Positions 22,146 through 38,137 of a stretch of 64,000 nucleotides of DNA are shown here, in pieces. Each line of letters starts with the position of its first letter. The first letter of the stretch is position 1. The stretch comes from Gemmatimonadota bacterium. Lineage in GTDB: Bacteria; Gemmatimonadota; Gemmatimonadetes; Gemmatimonadales; Gemmatimonadaceae. A program made the position numbers and the translations under genes. The notes under the pieces are model-generated. The model did no database searches and was not told where the DNA came from. It saw only the letters and a program-made list of their open reading frames with translations. Where the stretch lies: the NCBI GenBank assembly GCA_028287235.1, contig JAQBQB010000010.1, forward strand, positions 186,001 to 250,000, in the 5' to 3' direction.

Positions 22146-22222
22146 AGGATGACAAGCGGTGCAGGATGACACGCCGTTCAGGATGACACGCCGTTCAGGA
22201 TGACAAGCGGTTCAGGATGACA
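22146..22222. repeat. 17-bp tandem repeat between kdpC and kdpB
   Basis: About four and a half copies of AGGATGACACGCCGTTC / AGGATGACAAGCGGTTC. On the minus strand each unit contains TTGTCATCCTGA or GTGTCATCCTGA; the first supplies the last codons (LSS) and TGA stop of kdpB. Same family as 1661-1699 and 4795-4924. Confidence 0.9.
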
Positions 22223-24341
22223 AATGCGTGAAGACGAGAAGCACGTCGATGATCTTGATGCCGATGAACGGCACGACGAGTCCGCCGAACCCGTACACGA
22301 ACAGATTGCGCCGGAGAATCACGGCGGCGGGCGCGGGCCGATAGCGAACGCCGCGCAGCGCCAGCGGAATGAGCGCGATGATGATCAGCGCGTTGAAGAT
22401 CACGCTGGCCAGGATCGCCGACTGCGGCGAGTGCAGCCGCATTACGTTGAGTGCGTTGAGCGCCGGATATGTCACCATGAACATCGCGGGGATGATCGCG
22501 AAGTACTTGGCCACGTCGTTGGCGATCGAGAACGTCGTCAGCGATCCGCGCGTCATCAGCAGCTGCTTCCCGATCTCCACGACTTCGATGAGCTTCGTGG
22601 GATTGGAATCGAGATCGATCATGTTGCCCGCTTCCTTCGCCGCCTGCGTGCCGCTGTTCATCGCCACGCCCACGTCGGCCTGGGCGAGCGCCGGCGCGTC
22701 GTTGGTGCCGTCGCCGGTCATCGCCACGAGCTTGCCGCCGGCCTGCTCGCGCTTGATCAGCGCCATCTTGTCTTCCGGCCTCGCCTCGGCGAGAAAATCG
22801 TCGACCCCCGCTTCGTTCGCGATGGCCGCCGCGGTGAGCGGGTTGTCGCCGGTGATCATCACCGTGCGAATGCCCATGGCGCGGAGCCGGTCGAACCGCT
22901 CCTTCATGCCGCCCTTCACGACGTCTTTCAGATAGATCACGCCGAGGATTCTCGCCGTGTGACCCTCGGCTTCGGCGACGACGAGCGGCGTGCCGCCCGC
23001 GCGGCTCACACGCTCCACCGCTTCGGTCATCGCGCTGGGAATCTCTCCGCCATGCTCACGAACCCAGCGTGCGATGGAATCGCCGGCACCTTTGCGCAGC
23101 TCCACGCCGCTCCAGTTCACGCCGCTCATGCGGGTCGTGGCCGAGAAGGGAACGAACTCCATGTTCGTGGGCCGTTCCGCCAAGTCGCCGACGCCGACAC
23201 TTACCACGCGGTTCCCCTCGGCCAGCGTGCGGCCGCGTAGCCCGAACCGTTCCTTGGCGAGCACCACGATGCTCCTGCCCTCTGGTGTCTCGTCGGGGAG
23301 CGACGCGAGCTGCGCACGGTCGGCAAAGTGCGCCAGGTCCACGCCGGGCATCGGCAAGAACTCCACCGCCTGCCGGTTGCCGAGCGTGATGGTTCCCGTC
23401 TTGTCGAGCAGCAGCGTGTTGACGTCGCCCGCCGCCTCGACCGCGCGCCCGCTCATCGAGATCACGTTCTGCTGGATCATGCGATCCATGCCCGCGATGC
23501 CGATGGCCGACAGCAGTCCGCCGATCGTGGTCGGAATGAGACACACGAGCAAGGCGATGAGCACCGGAATGCTCGCCGGCGCGCCGCTGTAGGTCGCGAA
23601 CGGCTGGAGCGTCACCACCGCGAAGAGAAAGATGATCGTGAGCCCAGACAACAGGATCGTGAGCGCGATCTCGTTCGGCGTCTTCTGGCGCGTGGCGCCT
23701 TCGACGAGCGCGATCATGCGATCGATGAACGTCTCGCCGGGATTCGCCGTGATGCGAATGATCAGATAGTCGGAGAGCACCTTCGTACCGCCCGTGACCG
23801 CCGAGCGATCGCCGCCCGACTCGCGGATCACCGGGGCGGACTCGCCGGTGATTGCGGACTCGTCGACCGACGCGACGCCTTGAGCGACTTCGCCATCGCT
23901 GGGAATGACGTCGCCGGGCGTGCAGAGCACGAGATCTCCTTTCCGCAGCGACGAAGCGATCACCATCTCGAAGGCGAGCTTGTCGATCTCGCCCGCATGG
24001 CCCAGGTCCGAAGCGTCGAGCCGGCGGGCATGCGTCTGCGTCCGCGAGGCGCGCAGCGTATCGGCTTGGGCCTTCCCGCGGCCTTCGGCCATCGCTTCGG
24101 CGAAGTTCGCGAAGACGACGGTGAACCACAGCCAGAGCACGATCTGGATGGTGAATCCGATTGCGGCGCGTCCGCTGGCCACGTCGCGCACCAGAACGAG
24201 TGTGCTCAACACGCTGCCGACGAGCACGACGAACATCACCGGGTTCGGGAGCATGTGCCGCGGATCGAGCTTCACGAATGCTTCGCCGATCGCGCGGCGG
24301 ACGATGGGCGGGTCGAAGAGAGGGCGTTTCTGGATGGTCAT
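22212..24341 (-). CDS. kdpB: KdpB, P-type ATPase subunit of the Kdp K+ pump
   Basis: 709 residues. The phosphorylation motif DKTGT is at 313-317 (D313), TGES is at 165-168, and [17 protein letters not shown] is present. Membrane helices lie at about 35-80, 227-280 and the last 130 residues. Start ATG 24341 has GGAG six bases upstream. The final FTHLSS codons and the stop come from a dispersed repeat, so the C-terminus has probably been rewritten by it. The gene is separated from kdpA by a 533-bp inverted-repeat element containing a GxxExxY gene on the opposite strand. Confidence 0.97.
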
Positions 24342-24396
24342 GAAGAGCTCCGCGATTGAATGGTTCGCGGTGAGGGATCGAGGTGGTGGCGTTGCA

Positions 24397-24930
24397 ACAG
24401 CGTTGGCACAGACTGAGACGGACACGGCACGGACACGCACGGAGGCACGCATTGGGAGCTCATGGGACGGCGCCGTTGCTTCATGGCGACATCACGGCGG
24501 AGATCATTCGCCTCTTTCTCCGGGTGTACGACCGGCTTGGATTCGGCTACTTGGAGTCGGTGTATCGCAACGCGCTTGCGCACGAGCTCACGAAGGCCGG
24601 AGTTACATTCGAGCGCGAGGCGACAATCGATGTCTGGTACGATGGGATTTGCGTGGGACACTTTCGCGCCGACTTTCTCGTGGAGGGTCGCGTCATTGTC
24701 GAAGTGAAAGCCTGCGAGACACTCGTCGGTGCGCACCGAGAACAAGTCCTCAACTACCTCCGCGGCTCTCACCTCGAGGTTGGACTGCTGCTGCATTTTG
24801 GGCCCGCAGCCAAGTTTCGCCGCGTCCTCTACACGAATGACCGAAAGGCGGACCTTCGCGCCGTAACCGCCGTTCCGTGAGTGTCCGTGCTCGTCCGTGC
24901 GTGTCCGTGCGTGTCCGTGCCAACGCTGTC
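24397..24930. mobile_element. Small inverted-repeat-bounded element carrying a GxxExxY gene
   Basis: Left end 24397-24444 begins ACAGCGTTGGCAC and continues with GGACACGGCACGGACACGC. The right end, read inward from 24930, begins GACAGCGTTGGCACGGACAC and contains four GTGTCCGTGC-type direct repeats. The outer 13 bases match exactly in inverted orientation. The only gene inside is the GxxExxY ORF. The unit interrupts the kdpA-kdpB junction in antisense orientation. No target-site duplication is evident and there is no transposase, so mobility is inferred. Confidence 0.6.
24452..24880 (+). CDS. GxxExxY family protein (PD-(D/E)XK-like fold)
   Basis: 142 residues. The family signature appears as [13 protein letters not shown], followed by the nuclease-fold core [20 protein letters not shown], where D and E-x-K occupy the positions of a PD-(D/E)XK active site, and then [23 protein letters not shown]. 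The family's function is not established. TTG 24452 is chosen because GGAGG (24441-24445) lies six bases upstream; TTG 24476 is an alternative. It is antisense to the kdp operon and bounded by inverted repeats. Cargo or maintenance factor of a small element is my inference. Confidence 0.85.
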
Positions 24931-24943
24931 CCCGAGCTCGACA

Positions 24944-26659
24944 TCAGAACACCTTCCCCGCCGTCATCGACAGATGCTCGACGATCGGCCCAAGCGCGAG
25001 CGCCGGAAAAAACGTCAGCGCACTGAGAATGAGCACGACGCTCACCAGCAGTCCCACGAACAGTCCGCCGGTAACCGGAAACGTCCCCGCGCTCTCCGGC
25101 GCCACCTTCTTTTCGGCCATGAACCCCGCCAGCGCCAGCATCGGTACCATCATCCCGAACCGGCCGATCAGCGTGTTGAGACCGAGCGTCGTGTTGTAGT
25201 AGTACGTGCTTCCCGTCAGCCCTCCGAAGGCGCTGCCGTTGTTCGCCGCGGTCGACGTGAACGCATACAGGATCTCTGATAGTCCGTGCGGTCCGCTGTT
25301 GTTCAGACCGGCCCGTCCCGGCTCGAGCAGCACCGAGAGGCCGGTGAGCGTGAGAATGACCGCCGGAAACACGAGCGCATACAGCATCGCCATCTGGACT
25401 TCGCGCGCCTGAATCTTCTTGCCGAGGTACTCGGGCGTTCGACCCACCATGAGTCCGGCGATGAACACCGTCAGCACGATCATCACGATGATGCCGTACA
25501 ACCCGGCGCCCACTCCGCCGTAGACGACCTCGCCCAACTGCATGTTGATCAGCGGCACGAGTCCGCCGAGTGGCGTGAACGAGTCGTGCATCGCGTTGAC
25601 GCAGCCGCACGACGCGTCGGTCGTCACGGTCGCGAAGAGCGCGGAGTTGGCGATCCCGAACCGCACCTCCTTCCCTTCCATGTTGCCGCCCGGATTCGTC
25701 TCGCTGGCGACGAGATCGAGGCCGCGGGCACCATGAATCGGATTGCCCCGTGCCTCCGACCAGTAGGCCGTCGTGACGCCGGCGAAGAACAGCAGGAACA
25801 TCGCGGCCCATACGGCCCAGCCATGCCGCGTGTTCTTCACCATTCGGCCGAACATGTAGACCAGGCCCGACGGGATCATGAAGATCATGAACACCGACCA
25901 GAAGTTGGTCCACGGCGTGGGGCTCTCGAACGGATGCGCCGAATTCGCGTTGAAGAACCCGCCGCCGTTGGTGCCGAGCTGCTTGATCGATTCCTGGCTC
26001 GCCACCGGCCCCATGGCCAGCGTCTGCTTCGCGCCCTCGAGGGTGGTGACCGTGAGGTACGGCTTGAAGTTCTGAATCGTGCCTTGTTGAATGAACACGA
26101 GCGCCGCGACGAAGGAGAGCGGCAACAAGACGTAGAGCGTTCCGCGCGTGAGATCCGCGTAGAAGTTGCCGAGCTTTCCGGCCGAGCGCCGTGCGAGGCC
26201 GCGCACGAGCGCCACGGCCACGGCCATGCCCACGGCGGCCGAGATGAAGTTGTGATAGGCGAGCTGCGTCATCTGCGACAGATACGACATCGTCGATTCG
26301 CCGCTATACGACTGCCAGTTCGTGTTGGCCGTGAACGATGCCGACGTCTCGAACGACTGACGGTCCGGCACCGCGGCCAGATGCTGTGGGTTCAGCGGCA
26401 ATACCGCCTGCAGCCGCAGCACGACGTAGGTGAGCAGCATCGTGATCAGGCTGAAGATCAGCATCGCGCTCGCGTAGCGCGTCCAGTGCTGGTCCTCCTC
26501 GGGATCGACGCCGCAGAGGCGGTAGAGGATGCGCTCGACGGGCGCGAGCCAGCGGACCGACCCGTCGTACACGCGCGCGAGGTAGACGCCAAGCGGCTTC
26601 GCGACGAGCAGGATCGCGACTGCGAAGAAGGCGATTTGCAGCCAACCGTTGACGGTCAT
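24944..26659 (-). CDS. kdpA: KdpA, K+-translocating channel-like subunit
   Basis: 571 residues, about ten membrane helices, four selectivity-filter-like repeats, and the typical LGTNGGGFFNANSAHPFESP and GMMVPMLALAGFMAEKK blocks. KdpA carries the K+ selectivity filter of the KdpFABC pump in the inner membrane. Start ATG 26659 lies one base after the kdpF stop. Downstream, the inverted-repeat element begins 13 bases past its stop codon. Confidence 0.97.
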   Translation of the reverse strand: MTVNGWLQIAFFAVAILLVAKPLGVYLARVYDGSVRWLAPVERILYRLCGVDPEEDQHWTRYASAMLIFSLITMLLTYVVLRLQAVLPLNPQHLAAVPDRQSFETSASFTANTNWQSYSGESTMSYLSQMTQLAYHNFISAAVGMAVAVALVRGLARRSAGKLGNFYADLTRGTLYVLLPLSFVAALVFIQQGTIQNFKPYLTVTTLEGAKQTLAMGPVASQESIKQLGTNGGGFFNANSAHPFESPTPWTNFWSVFMIFMIPSGLVYMFGRMVKNTRHGWAVWAAMFLLFFAGVTTAYWSEARGNPIHGARGLDLVASETNPGGNMEGKEVRFGIANSALFATVTTDASCGCVNAMHDSFTPLGGLVPLINMQLGEVVYGGVGAGLYGIIVMIVLTVFIAGLMVGRTPEYLGKKIQAREVQMAMLYALVFPAVILTLTGLSVLLEPGRAGLNNSGPHGLSEILYAFTSTAANNGSAFGGLTGSTYYYNTTLGLNTLIGRFGMMVPMLALAGFMAEKKVAPESAGTFPVTGGLFVGLLVSVVLILSALTFFPALALGPIVEHLSMTAGKVF

Positions 26660-36544: not shown

Positions 36545-38137
36545 CTACTCCGGCGACTCGCCTCCACGTGCGAGCTCGGCGCTCGACATCGCGGGAACGC
36601 GGAGGCTGAAGATGCTCCCGCCTCCGTCGCGATCGCTCACCGCGAGGCTGCCCCGCTCCGCGACAGCAATACCCCGCGCGATCGACAATCCGAGACCGGC
36701 ACCGCCCACGTCCGACGCGCGCCCCGGTGCGCGATAGAACGGCTCGAAGATTCGCTCGCGCTCCGCGACGGGAATACCCGGACCCCGATCGGCCACCGCG
36801 AACACGAGCCATGCGCCGTCGCGATACGCAGACAGGTCGACCGGCTCCGCATCCGGCGAATACTTCGCGGCGTTCTCGATGAGATTCACGAGCGCGCGCA
36901 AAGTTTGAGAGAAATCGAATCTGCCGAACAGCAGCTCGTCGCTCGACGCCACGGAGATGCGGAGCTCGTGGCCACGGAGCCCGCCGGCCGACTGTTGCGC
37001 CGCGGCGCCGAGCAAATCCTCGGCTTCGTTCGGCTGGATGTCCACCGCGGCCGAGCCGCTCGAAATGCGCGACAGGTCCAGCAGCTGCGCGACCAGCCGG
37101 CTGAGCCGGCCCGCCTCCTCCTCGATGATCGCGGCGCGATCGTCCCCATCGGCCGCGATCTCGTGCGCGAGCCCCATGATCGTCGTGAGCGGCGTACGTA
37201 GATCGTGCGATACCGACGCGAGCACCGCATCCTTGGCGCGATGCGCTTCCTGGAGCGATTGCGCGCGCTCGGCTTCGGCGGCCAATCGAACGCGCTCCAC
37301 GCCGAGCGCCGCGTAGTACGCGAGCGCTTCGAGGACGCGGACTTCGGCCGTGCTCAGCGCGAGACCTGCGTCCTTTCGGAGCGCGAGCACGCCCACGGTG
37401 CGGTCGCGCACGCGCAATGGCTGCATCAGCTCGCGTGCGCGACCCGACGAGTCCGCGCCCGCCGCAACGGCCGCCGGATCGACACCGACGCGCGTCGTTC
37501 CGTCGACGTGCTCCGCCGCGGCCGCTCCGCGCGACGCGACCCACTCGATGAGGTCGTGCGGGTTGCGCGCCTCGGGAATCGGCCGCGAATCGTCGGCCGA
37601 GCGAATGGCGAGCCGCACGCCGTCGTCGTCCGTGCCGGACATGTACACCGAGCATGCATCGAGATGCAGCGTGGTGCGAATGACCTCCGCGATCGCCGTG
37701 AGCGCGTCCTCGGAGCGCGCGACGTTGAGCGTCTCGGCGCCGAGCGCGGCAAAGCGGTCCACTTCGGCGGCACGCTGTCGCGCAACTTCCGCTTCGGCCT
37801 GCGCACGATAGAGCAGTTGCGCCGACAGGATGCTCGAGCCGAGAAACGCCACGAGCACGAGCCAGTTCAGCGGATTCTGCACGACGAGCGTGCCGTACGG
37901 CAGAAGAAAGAGCAGATCGAAGCACAGGAACGCCGCGAGCGCGATCGCGATGCCGAGCGGCCGCCCGCCTCGCGCGCTCGCGCCCTGCACCACGAGCAGG
38001 TAGGCGAGGGTGACGAGCGCTTCGTTGAGCGATGCGCGAGCGCTCAACATCATCGCCGTGACGACGGCCAGGATGGCGAACCAGATCGCCGCCTCTCGCC
38101 CGCTCGAGCGCCCGAGCGCCCGCGGTTCTCCGATCAT
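36545..38137 (-). CDS. DUF4118-GAF sensor histidine kinase resembling the C-terminal half of KdpD
   Basis: 530 residues. In order: DUF4118 membrane domain (about 15-110, four helices as in KdpD), GAF-like domain (about 135-280), HisKA with SVSHDLRTPLTTIMG, and an ATPase domain with NLIENAAKYSP, VADRGPGIP, FEPFYRAPG and GAGLGLSIARGI. All catalytic residues are present. ATG 38137 starts one base after the regulator stop. It lacks the KdpD/USP N-terminal part, which is encoded at 18923-20119. Likely partner of the KdpE-like regulator; whether K+ is the signal is inferred. Confidence 0.92.
   Translation of the reverse strand: MIGEPRALGRSSGREAAIWFAILAVVTAMMLSARASLNEALVTLAYLLVVQGASARGGRPLGIAIALAAFLCFDLLFLLPYGTLVVQNPLNWLVLVAFLGSSILSAQLLYRAQAEAEVARQRAAEVDRFAALGAETLNVARSEDALTAIAEVIRTTLHLDACSVYMSGTDDDGVRLAIRSADDSRPIPEARNPHDLIEWVASRGAAAAEHVDGTTRVGVDPAAVAAGADSSGRARELMQPLRVRDRTVGVLALRKDAGLALSTAEVRVLEALAYYAALGVERVRLAAEAERAQSLQEAHRAKDAVLASVSHDLRTPLTTIMGLAHEIAADGDDRAAIIEEEAGRLSRLVAQLLDLSRISSGSAAVDIQPNEAEDLLGAAAQQSAGGLRGHELRISVASSDELLFGRFDFSQTLRALVNLIENAAKYSPDAEPVDLSAYRDGAWLVFAVADRGPGIPVAERERIFEPFYRAPGRASDVGGAGLGLSIARGIAVAERGSLAVSDRDGGGSIFSLRVPAMSSAELARGGESPE

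Follow-up and report, generated by a model that had tools for sequence, protein, structure and literature searches.

A 533-bp unit in which a GxxExxY gene lies between inverted ends (24397–24929) occupies the interval between kdpA and kdpB in the window, by which we mean the whole 64,000-nucleotide stretch of DNA analysed here. Gene-less hairpins of one family are dispersed through the same genome, with the unit as their gene-bearing counterpart, and most of the GxxExxY genes compared, from many phyla, lie between matched ends of the same architecture. We consider it probable that the two forms constitute an autonomous/non-autonomous pair of mobile elements whose nuclease acts on the element's own ends and would be the mobilizing enzyme. 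The element class looks undescribed and very widespread in bacteria. The features of the locus are:

22212–24341, minus strand: kdpB, with its ATG at 24341 and a GGAG 6 nt upstream; the frame continues without a stop across the left array as far as 24452
24395–24451, plus strand: left inverted array, consisting of the outer end CAACAGCGTTGGCAC followed by ~10-bp units ACGGACACGG CACGGACACG CACGGAGG; aligns with the right array over 47 bp
24452–24880, plus strand: GxxExxY gene (PDDEXK_3), 142 amino acids from TTG 24452, with matches to PF13366 and TIGR04256 and conserved catalytic residues
24881–24929, minus strand: right inverted array, with GTGTCCGTGC at 24881, 24901 and 24911, one variant unit between them, and the outer end CCAACGCTGT
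24944–26659, minus strand: kdpA, whose stop overlaps an ATG (TGATG)

The sequence-only reading had described a unit with matching outer ends and internal repeats, holding an intact GxxExxY gene with its own GGAGG antisense to the operon, and this description was confirmed. CAACAGCGTTGGCAC runs on the plus strand from 24395 (ACAGCG.. at 24397) and its inverse copy ends at 24929; the three listed GTGTCCGTGC units are on the plus strand and one inverted unit lies at 24427 (minus strand). Alignment of the left arm with the right extends over 47 bp and scores 52 (99th percentile of random placements, 33), and the element contains almost no sequence beyond the gene and these ends. The gene is on the plus strand, antisense to both kdpA and kdpB.

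The two kdp genes are separated by 605 bp here, compared with 2–128 bp (mostly 2–6 bp) in 27 kdp operons of Gemmatimonadaceae that are without the element and have empty sites. As kdp is absent from the other five species of the genus, these empty sites all belong to other genera of Gemmatimonadaceae. Where the gap in a relative is larger, it appears to be taken up by an in-frame N-terminal extension of KdpB. In the window, the kdpA stop still overlaps an ATG (TGATG), a few codons follow before the element is reached, and the kdpB core with its ATG at 24341 is intact beyond it. This ATG is probably where an earlier N-terminal extension of KdpB began, an extension that the element has interrupted, which suggests that the element probably entered at the extendable 5′ end of kdpB. 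The minus-strand kdpB frame is open across the left array (24341–24452), and the array could supply an alternative KdpB start.

The protein encoded by the element scored 125.1 bits against PF13366 (curated cut-off, 22) and 123.5 bits against TIGR04256 (cut-off, 35). PDDEXK_3 was its sole Pfam match at E ≤ 0.001, with no match at that threshold to DDE, serine, tyrosine or HUH transposase domains. The longest open frame starts at GTG 24383 and ends at a TGA (24878–24880) that abuts the right array; the start is most likely TTG 24452, because a GGAGG Shine–Dalgarno sequence (24441–24445) sits 6 nt upstream of it, within the last left unit. An alignment of 38 sequences showed conservation of the catalytic residues E58 (GxxE), D97, E107xK109 and Q121xxxY125 (numbered from GTG 24383). 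In the predicted structure, whose core has a pLDDT of ≥93 by block, the fold is closest to Cas4 SSO0001 (4ic1; Z = 10.8), while comparison with other PD-(D/E)XK nucleases, including LHK-Exo and Hjc, gave Z near 7, the level of common ties. Foldseek listed LHK-Exo and lambda exonuclease among its matches, and PADLOC returned a weak match to a Cas4b profile (E = 7e-4), which agrees with a Cas4-like fold. The conserved residues and the predicted fold agree with the PD-(D/E)XK-like core proposed from the sequence alone. A sequence search of the PDB with the GxxExxY protein returned no match. The open literature on GxxExxY, PDDEXK_3, TIGR04256 and PF13366 is near silent, with no assigned function found there (subscription journals may differ): 2 papers name GxxExxY, one of them in passing, none names PDDEXK_3 or TIGR04256, and the single paper for PF13366 deals with Arctic microalgae according to its title and abstract.

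The genome carries four GxxExxY copies with 43–54% mutual identity and no recent duplicates; the gene is therefore not multiplying like an insertion sequence, which the gene-less copies do, and it may be kept vertically rather than selfishly. GxxExxY was found on 0 of 50,697 phages and 8 of 72,556 plasmids, with 2 relatives in IMG/VR. The gene is thus almost absent from plasmids, phages and IMG/VR, and we rejected phage or plasmid carriage. A Bacteroides finegoldii ‘plasmid’ with GxxExxY appears to be a chromosome fragment, with housekeeping genes throughout, and its GxxExxY gene has the same kind of ends.

Matched ends proved to be a general property of GxxExxY loci. An inverted repeat scoring ≥32 lies just outside the gene at 64% of 164 GxxExxY loci, from Gemmatimonadaceae and many other phyla, compared with 0.5% of 186 control genes, which were other predicted genes from the same loci and the window (Mann–Whitney P = 1e-32). 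The remaining 36% of the 164 loci had no clear repeat by this test. For the best inverted repeat between 500-bp flanks, the median score was 39 in 91 Gemmatimonadaceae loci (random placements, 23; 63% above the 99th percentile of 33); the median best score was 38 for 76 loci from Acidobacteria, Planctomycetes, Chloroflexi, Bacteroidetes, Proteobacteria and others (random placements, 21; 68% above the 99th percentile). A Bacteroides GxxExxY copy adjacent to radA also has inverted ends.

The arms consist of near-tandem units with a period of 10 (z = 23.6 at lag 10, 13.7 at lag 9 and 6.1 at lag 20; for example, GCCGCGGATTAACGCGGATTAACGCGGAT), and the unit sequence varies between loci and is common to both arms within a locus. 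Left and right arms scored 47.5 within a locus versus 22 against the nearest protein neighbour, a gap inflated by the choice of arms for high within-locus score; the random-placement and control-gene tests are unaffected by this choice. Arm similarity tracks protein identity (Mantel r = 0.326, P ≤ 0.001, n = 88; within Gemmatimonadaceae, r = 0.153, P ≤ 0.008), and L148, which at 60% identity is the nearest protein relative of the window gene, is also the locus whose ends resemble it most. At the three remaining GxxExxY genes of the genome the ends follow the same plan with sequences of their own, clearly at L010 and more weakly at L011 and L012. As these three lack GTGTCCGTGC, we rejected the idea that GTGTCCGTGC ends flank every GxxExxY gene: the proposed check for the same inverted ends at every locus failed as worded, the ends being locus-specific, and succeeded for the architecture, which is matched locus by locus.

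Across the 5.73-Mb genome we counted 50 occurrences of the decamer GTGTCCGTGC, compared with 6 of the reversed control. Many lone matches look like chance occurrences inside other sequence, and the clustered ones mark copies of the family. Because the census used pattern searches, its counts are a lower bound: about 7 complete gene-less copies of ~130–260 bp and several single ends have the window's ends (type A), and at least 12 dispersed gene-less copies have the ends of L010 (type B; 11 end matches including L010's own versus 0 for the control). Across both families the copies are hairpins of 130–330 nt. Compared with the four resident genes, type A ends match only the window's locus (L009) and type B ends only L010 (scores of 71/56 and 52/74; others ≤18). 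The five other genomes of the genus gave no close match to type A ends. Several copies in both families have a common internal core (GACGCTCGGGA..TCCCGAGCGTC, TTCCAAAGAAA, CGCAACGAGCC), pointing to one non-autonomous core fitted with different ends. Two further end types, C and D, surround the same kind of hairpin (C1:156746, C4:65284, C6:120491 and C19:56246; L353, L355, L359 and L365), with no matching GxxExxY gene in the genome.

The copies are predicted to fold as single hairpins with 71–86% of bases paired (minimum free energy, −61 to −252 kcal/mol; z = −23.6 for the copy on C30). The C30 copy (L344:1337–1650; C30 ~36836–37149) is a 314-nt gene-less near-perfect palindrome. Its arms agree with each other where they differ from all other copies, and among 7 copies 13 of 104 paired positions were changed on both sides; the arms therefore seem to be recopied from, or corrected against, each other. 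For the copy at C26:98874–99005, the orthologous sites in four other species are without it; the copies at C26:77949 and C23:176022, for which only one flank could be aligned at orthologous sites, were left out as empty sites. In a search for target-site duplications, direct repeats at the copy boundaries were not above those of shuffled pairs, the exact boundaries being uncertain.

These results support in part the suggestion, made from the sequence alone, of a minimal selfish or non-autonomous element. Three observations speak strongly for a minimal selfish element whose sole cargo is a nuclease: relatives have empty sites, matched ends are general among GxxExxY genes, and gene-less copies share those ends. 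The non-autonomous label does not apply to the unit in the window, which is the gene-bearing form.

A similar plan was found around an unrelated gene family. Among the Gemmatimonadaceae loci of PF05635, the 23S-IVP four-helix-bundle family (L286–L315), 26 of 29 score ≥35 between arms, compared with a cross-locus median of 23, and their arrays are locus-specific tandem units of ~7 bp (z = 25.4 at lag 7, 20.6 at lag 14 and 17 at lag 21). This common plan suggests that elements of one gene between matched unit arrays form a wider class, PF05635 included. 23S rRNA intervening sequences with S23p/IVP genes are stems processed by RNase III (PMC4990558). They resemble the present element in being small single-gene elements whose inverted ends form a stem, but the proteins are unrelated (PF13366 here, PF05635 there), the unit period here is 10 rather than 7, and the element in the window lies between kdpA and kdpB, outside rRNA.

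Among known systems, REPIN/RAYT (PMC3116915, PMC8266576) likewise combines a single chromosomal nuclease gene, which does not amplify and is bounded by inverted palindromic ends, with many dispersed gene-less copies sharing the resident gene's ends (here types A and B); no target duplication is visible here. RAYT is, however, a Y1 HUH transposase, whereas GxxExxY has a PD-(D/E)XK fold, and the arrays of ~10-bp units and copies of 130–330 nt differ from REPs of 20–40 nt. A search of the whole genome for a Y1 transposase (PF01797) returned no match, and we rejected RAYT/IS200 as the mobilizer. The element thus resembles REPIN/RAYT in working plan but lacks its defining Y1 enzyme. As with MITEs and their autonomous insertion sequences, gene-less copies have only the terminal inverted repeats in common with the gene-bearing copy; in contrast to them, we detected no known transposase domain, and no target duplication at boundaries whose exact position is uncertain, the unit arrays are locus-specific and the whole copy is a long hairpin.

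We know of no report of matched array ends around genes for Rpn (PF04754) proteins. These recombination-promoting nucleases (PMC5350276) are also PD-(D/E)XK nucleases linked to DNA mobilization, but belong to a different family from GxxExxY. Cas4, lambda exonuclease and RecB-like nucleases are the best structural matches and have the QxxxY motif; unlike them, GxxExxY stands alone in its own array, without a CRISPR or recombinase partner. We do not assign it to Cas4: Cas4 has conserved iron–sulphur cysteines, no cysteine is invariant or near-invariant in the 38-sequence GxxExxY alignment, and CRISPR context is absent at the window element, whose neighbours are kdp genes. The link to Cas4 consists of predicted fold similarity and the weak Cas4b match.

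The palindromes might instead owe their spread to another enzyme, or to slippage and template switching during replication, with GxxExxY as cargo caught in the loop. The C30 arms, near identical and carrying variants absent elsewhere as if homogenized by palindrome correction, would fit this, as would the pairs changed on both sides, the end types C and D that have no partner gene, and the similar inverted arrays around the functionally unrelated PF05635 genes. We nevertheless judge it unlikely, as the association of GxxExxY with arrays holds over many phyla, the ends track the protein sequence with types A and B each matching one gene, the catalytic residues are conserved, and arrays of this kind are missing around control genes.

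Selection on RNA would offer a different account of the pairing. The arms would form a long mRNA stem removed by RNase III, as for 23S rRNA intervening sequences, and matched arms would be kept since insertions into operons become harmless; the nuclease might still mobilize the element, pairing being selected as RNA. The stability of the hairpins is consistent with this, including the z value of the C30 copy, as is the predicted fold of the element within kdp mRNA, which pairs its ends. Intervening sequences with an S23p gene are RNase III-processed stems (PMC4990558), and that family has the same plan here. Such an account nonetheless leaves the ~10-bp tandem unit and its correlation with the protein unexplained, and many copies are intergenic, where processing is unneeded, making it in our view quite improbable. 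GxxExxY might also be a nuclease domesticated for defence or housekeeping, beside which regulatory hairpins occur incidentally. This would accord with the PADLOC match to Cas4b and with a chromosomal gene that is rare on plasmids and phages, yet one would not expect a housekeeping gene to be inserted in scattered contexts, to have empty sites or to share its ends with dispersed gene-less copies, and we regard this reading as very unlikely.

In the mobile pair that we favour, the gene-bearing form would comprise one Cas4/lambda-exonuclease-like PD-(D/E)XK gene flanked by two inverted arrays, each with about three ~10-bp units. The nuclease may recognize its own array, or a cruciform or hairpin formed by both arms, and the helical-period spacing of the units would suit binding along one face of the helix. 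It would then cut or trim at the array or hairpin, and a hairpin intermediate may take part, such that the gene-bearing copy and, more often, gene-less copies with the same ends, served in trans, would be copied to new intergenic sites without target duplication. We know of no other case in which a lone PD-(D/E)XK protein of the GxxExxY family would serve as a complete transposase. A more specific version, which we hold to be possible but rather doubtful, is that a lone Cas4-like nuclease mobilizes DNA through a hairpin (fold-back) intermediate with one arm recopied at each move, defining a new class of elements, with IVP genes as a second class. Under fold-back movement, the ends would be matched within a locus yet different between loci because one arm is recopied from the other each time.

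If the favoured reading is correct, GxxExxY would be the coding half of a REPIN-like system whose evolutionary origin is an unrelated nuclease fold. GxxExxY genes occur in very many environmental bacteria, and such a system would explain the ~10-bp tandem palindromic repeats scattered in soil and sediment genomes. The upkeep of matched, fast-changing inverted ends would become directly testable, and the puzzle of 23S rRNA intervening sequences would be linked to a wider class of elements.

Short arrays were also observed at other positions. At L323, L327, L335 and L319, the same or nearby intergenic sites appear to contain different short arrays in other species of the genus, arranged in tandem or inverted as if the sites had been used repeatedly. 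At the start of contig C1 (L346, near base 134), a type B end is followed directly by a 7-bp tandem array, (GGGGCGT)n, at the contig edge, and this array resembles the unit arrays around PF05635 genes.
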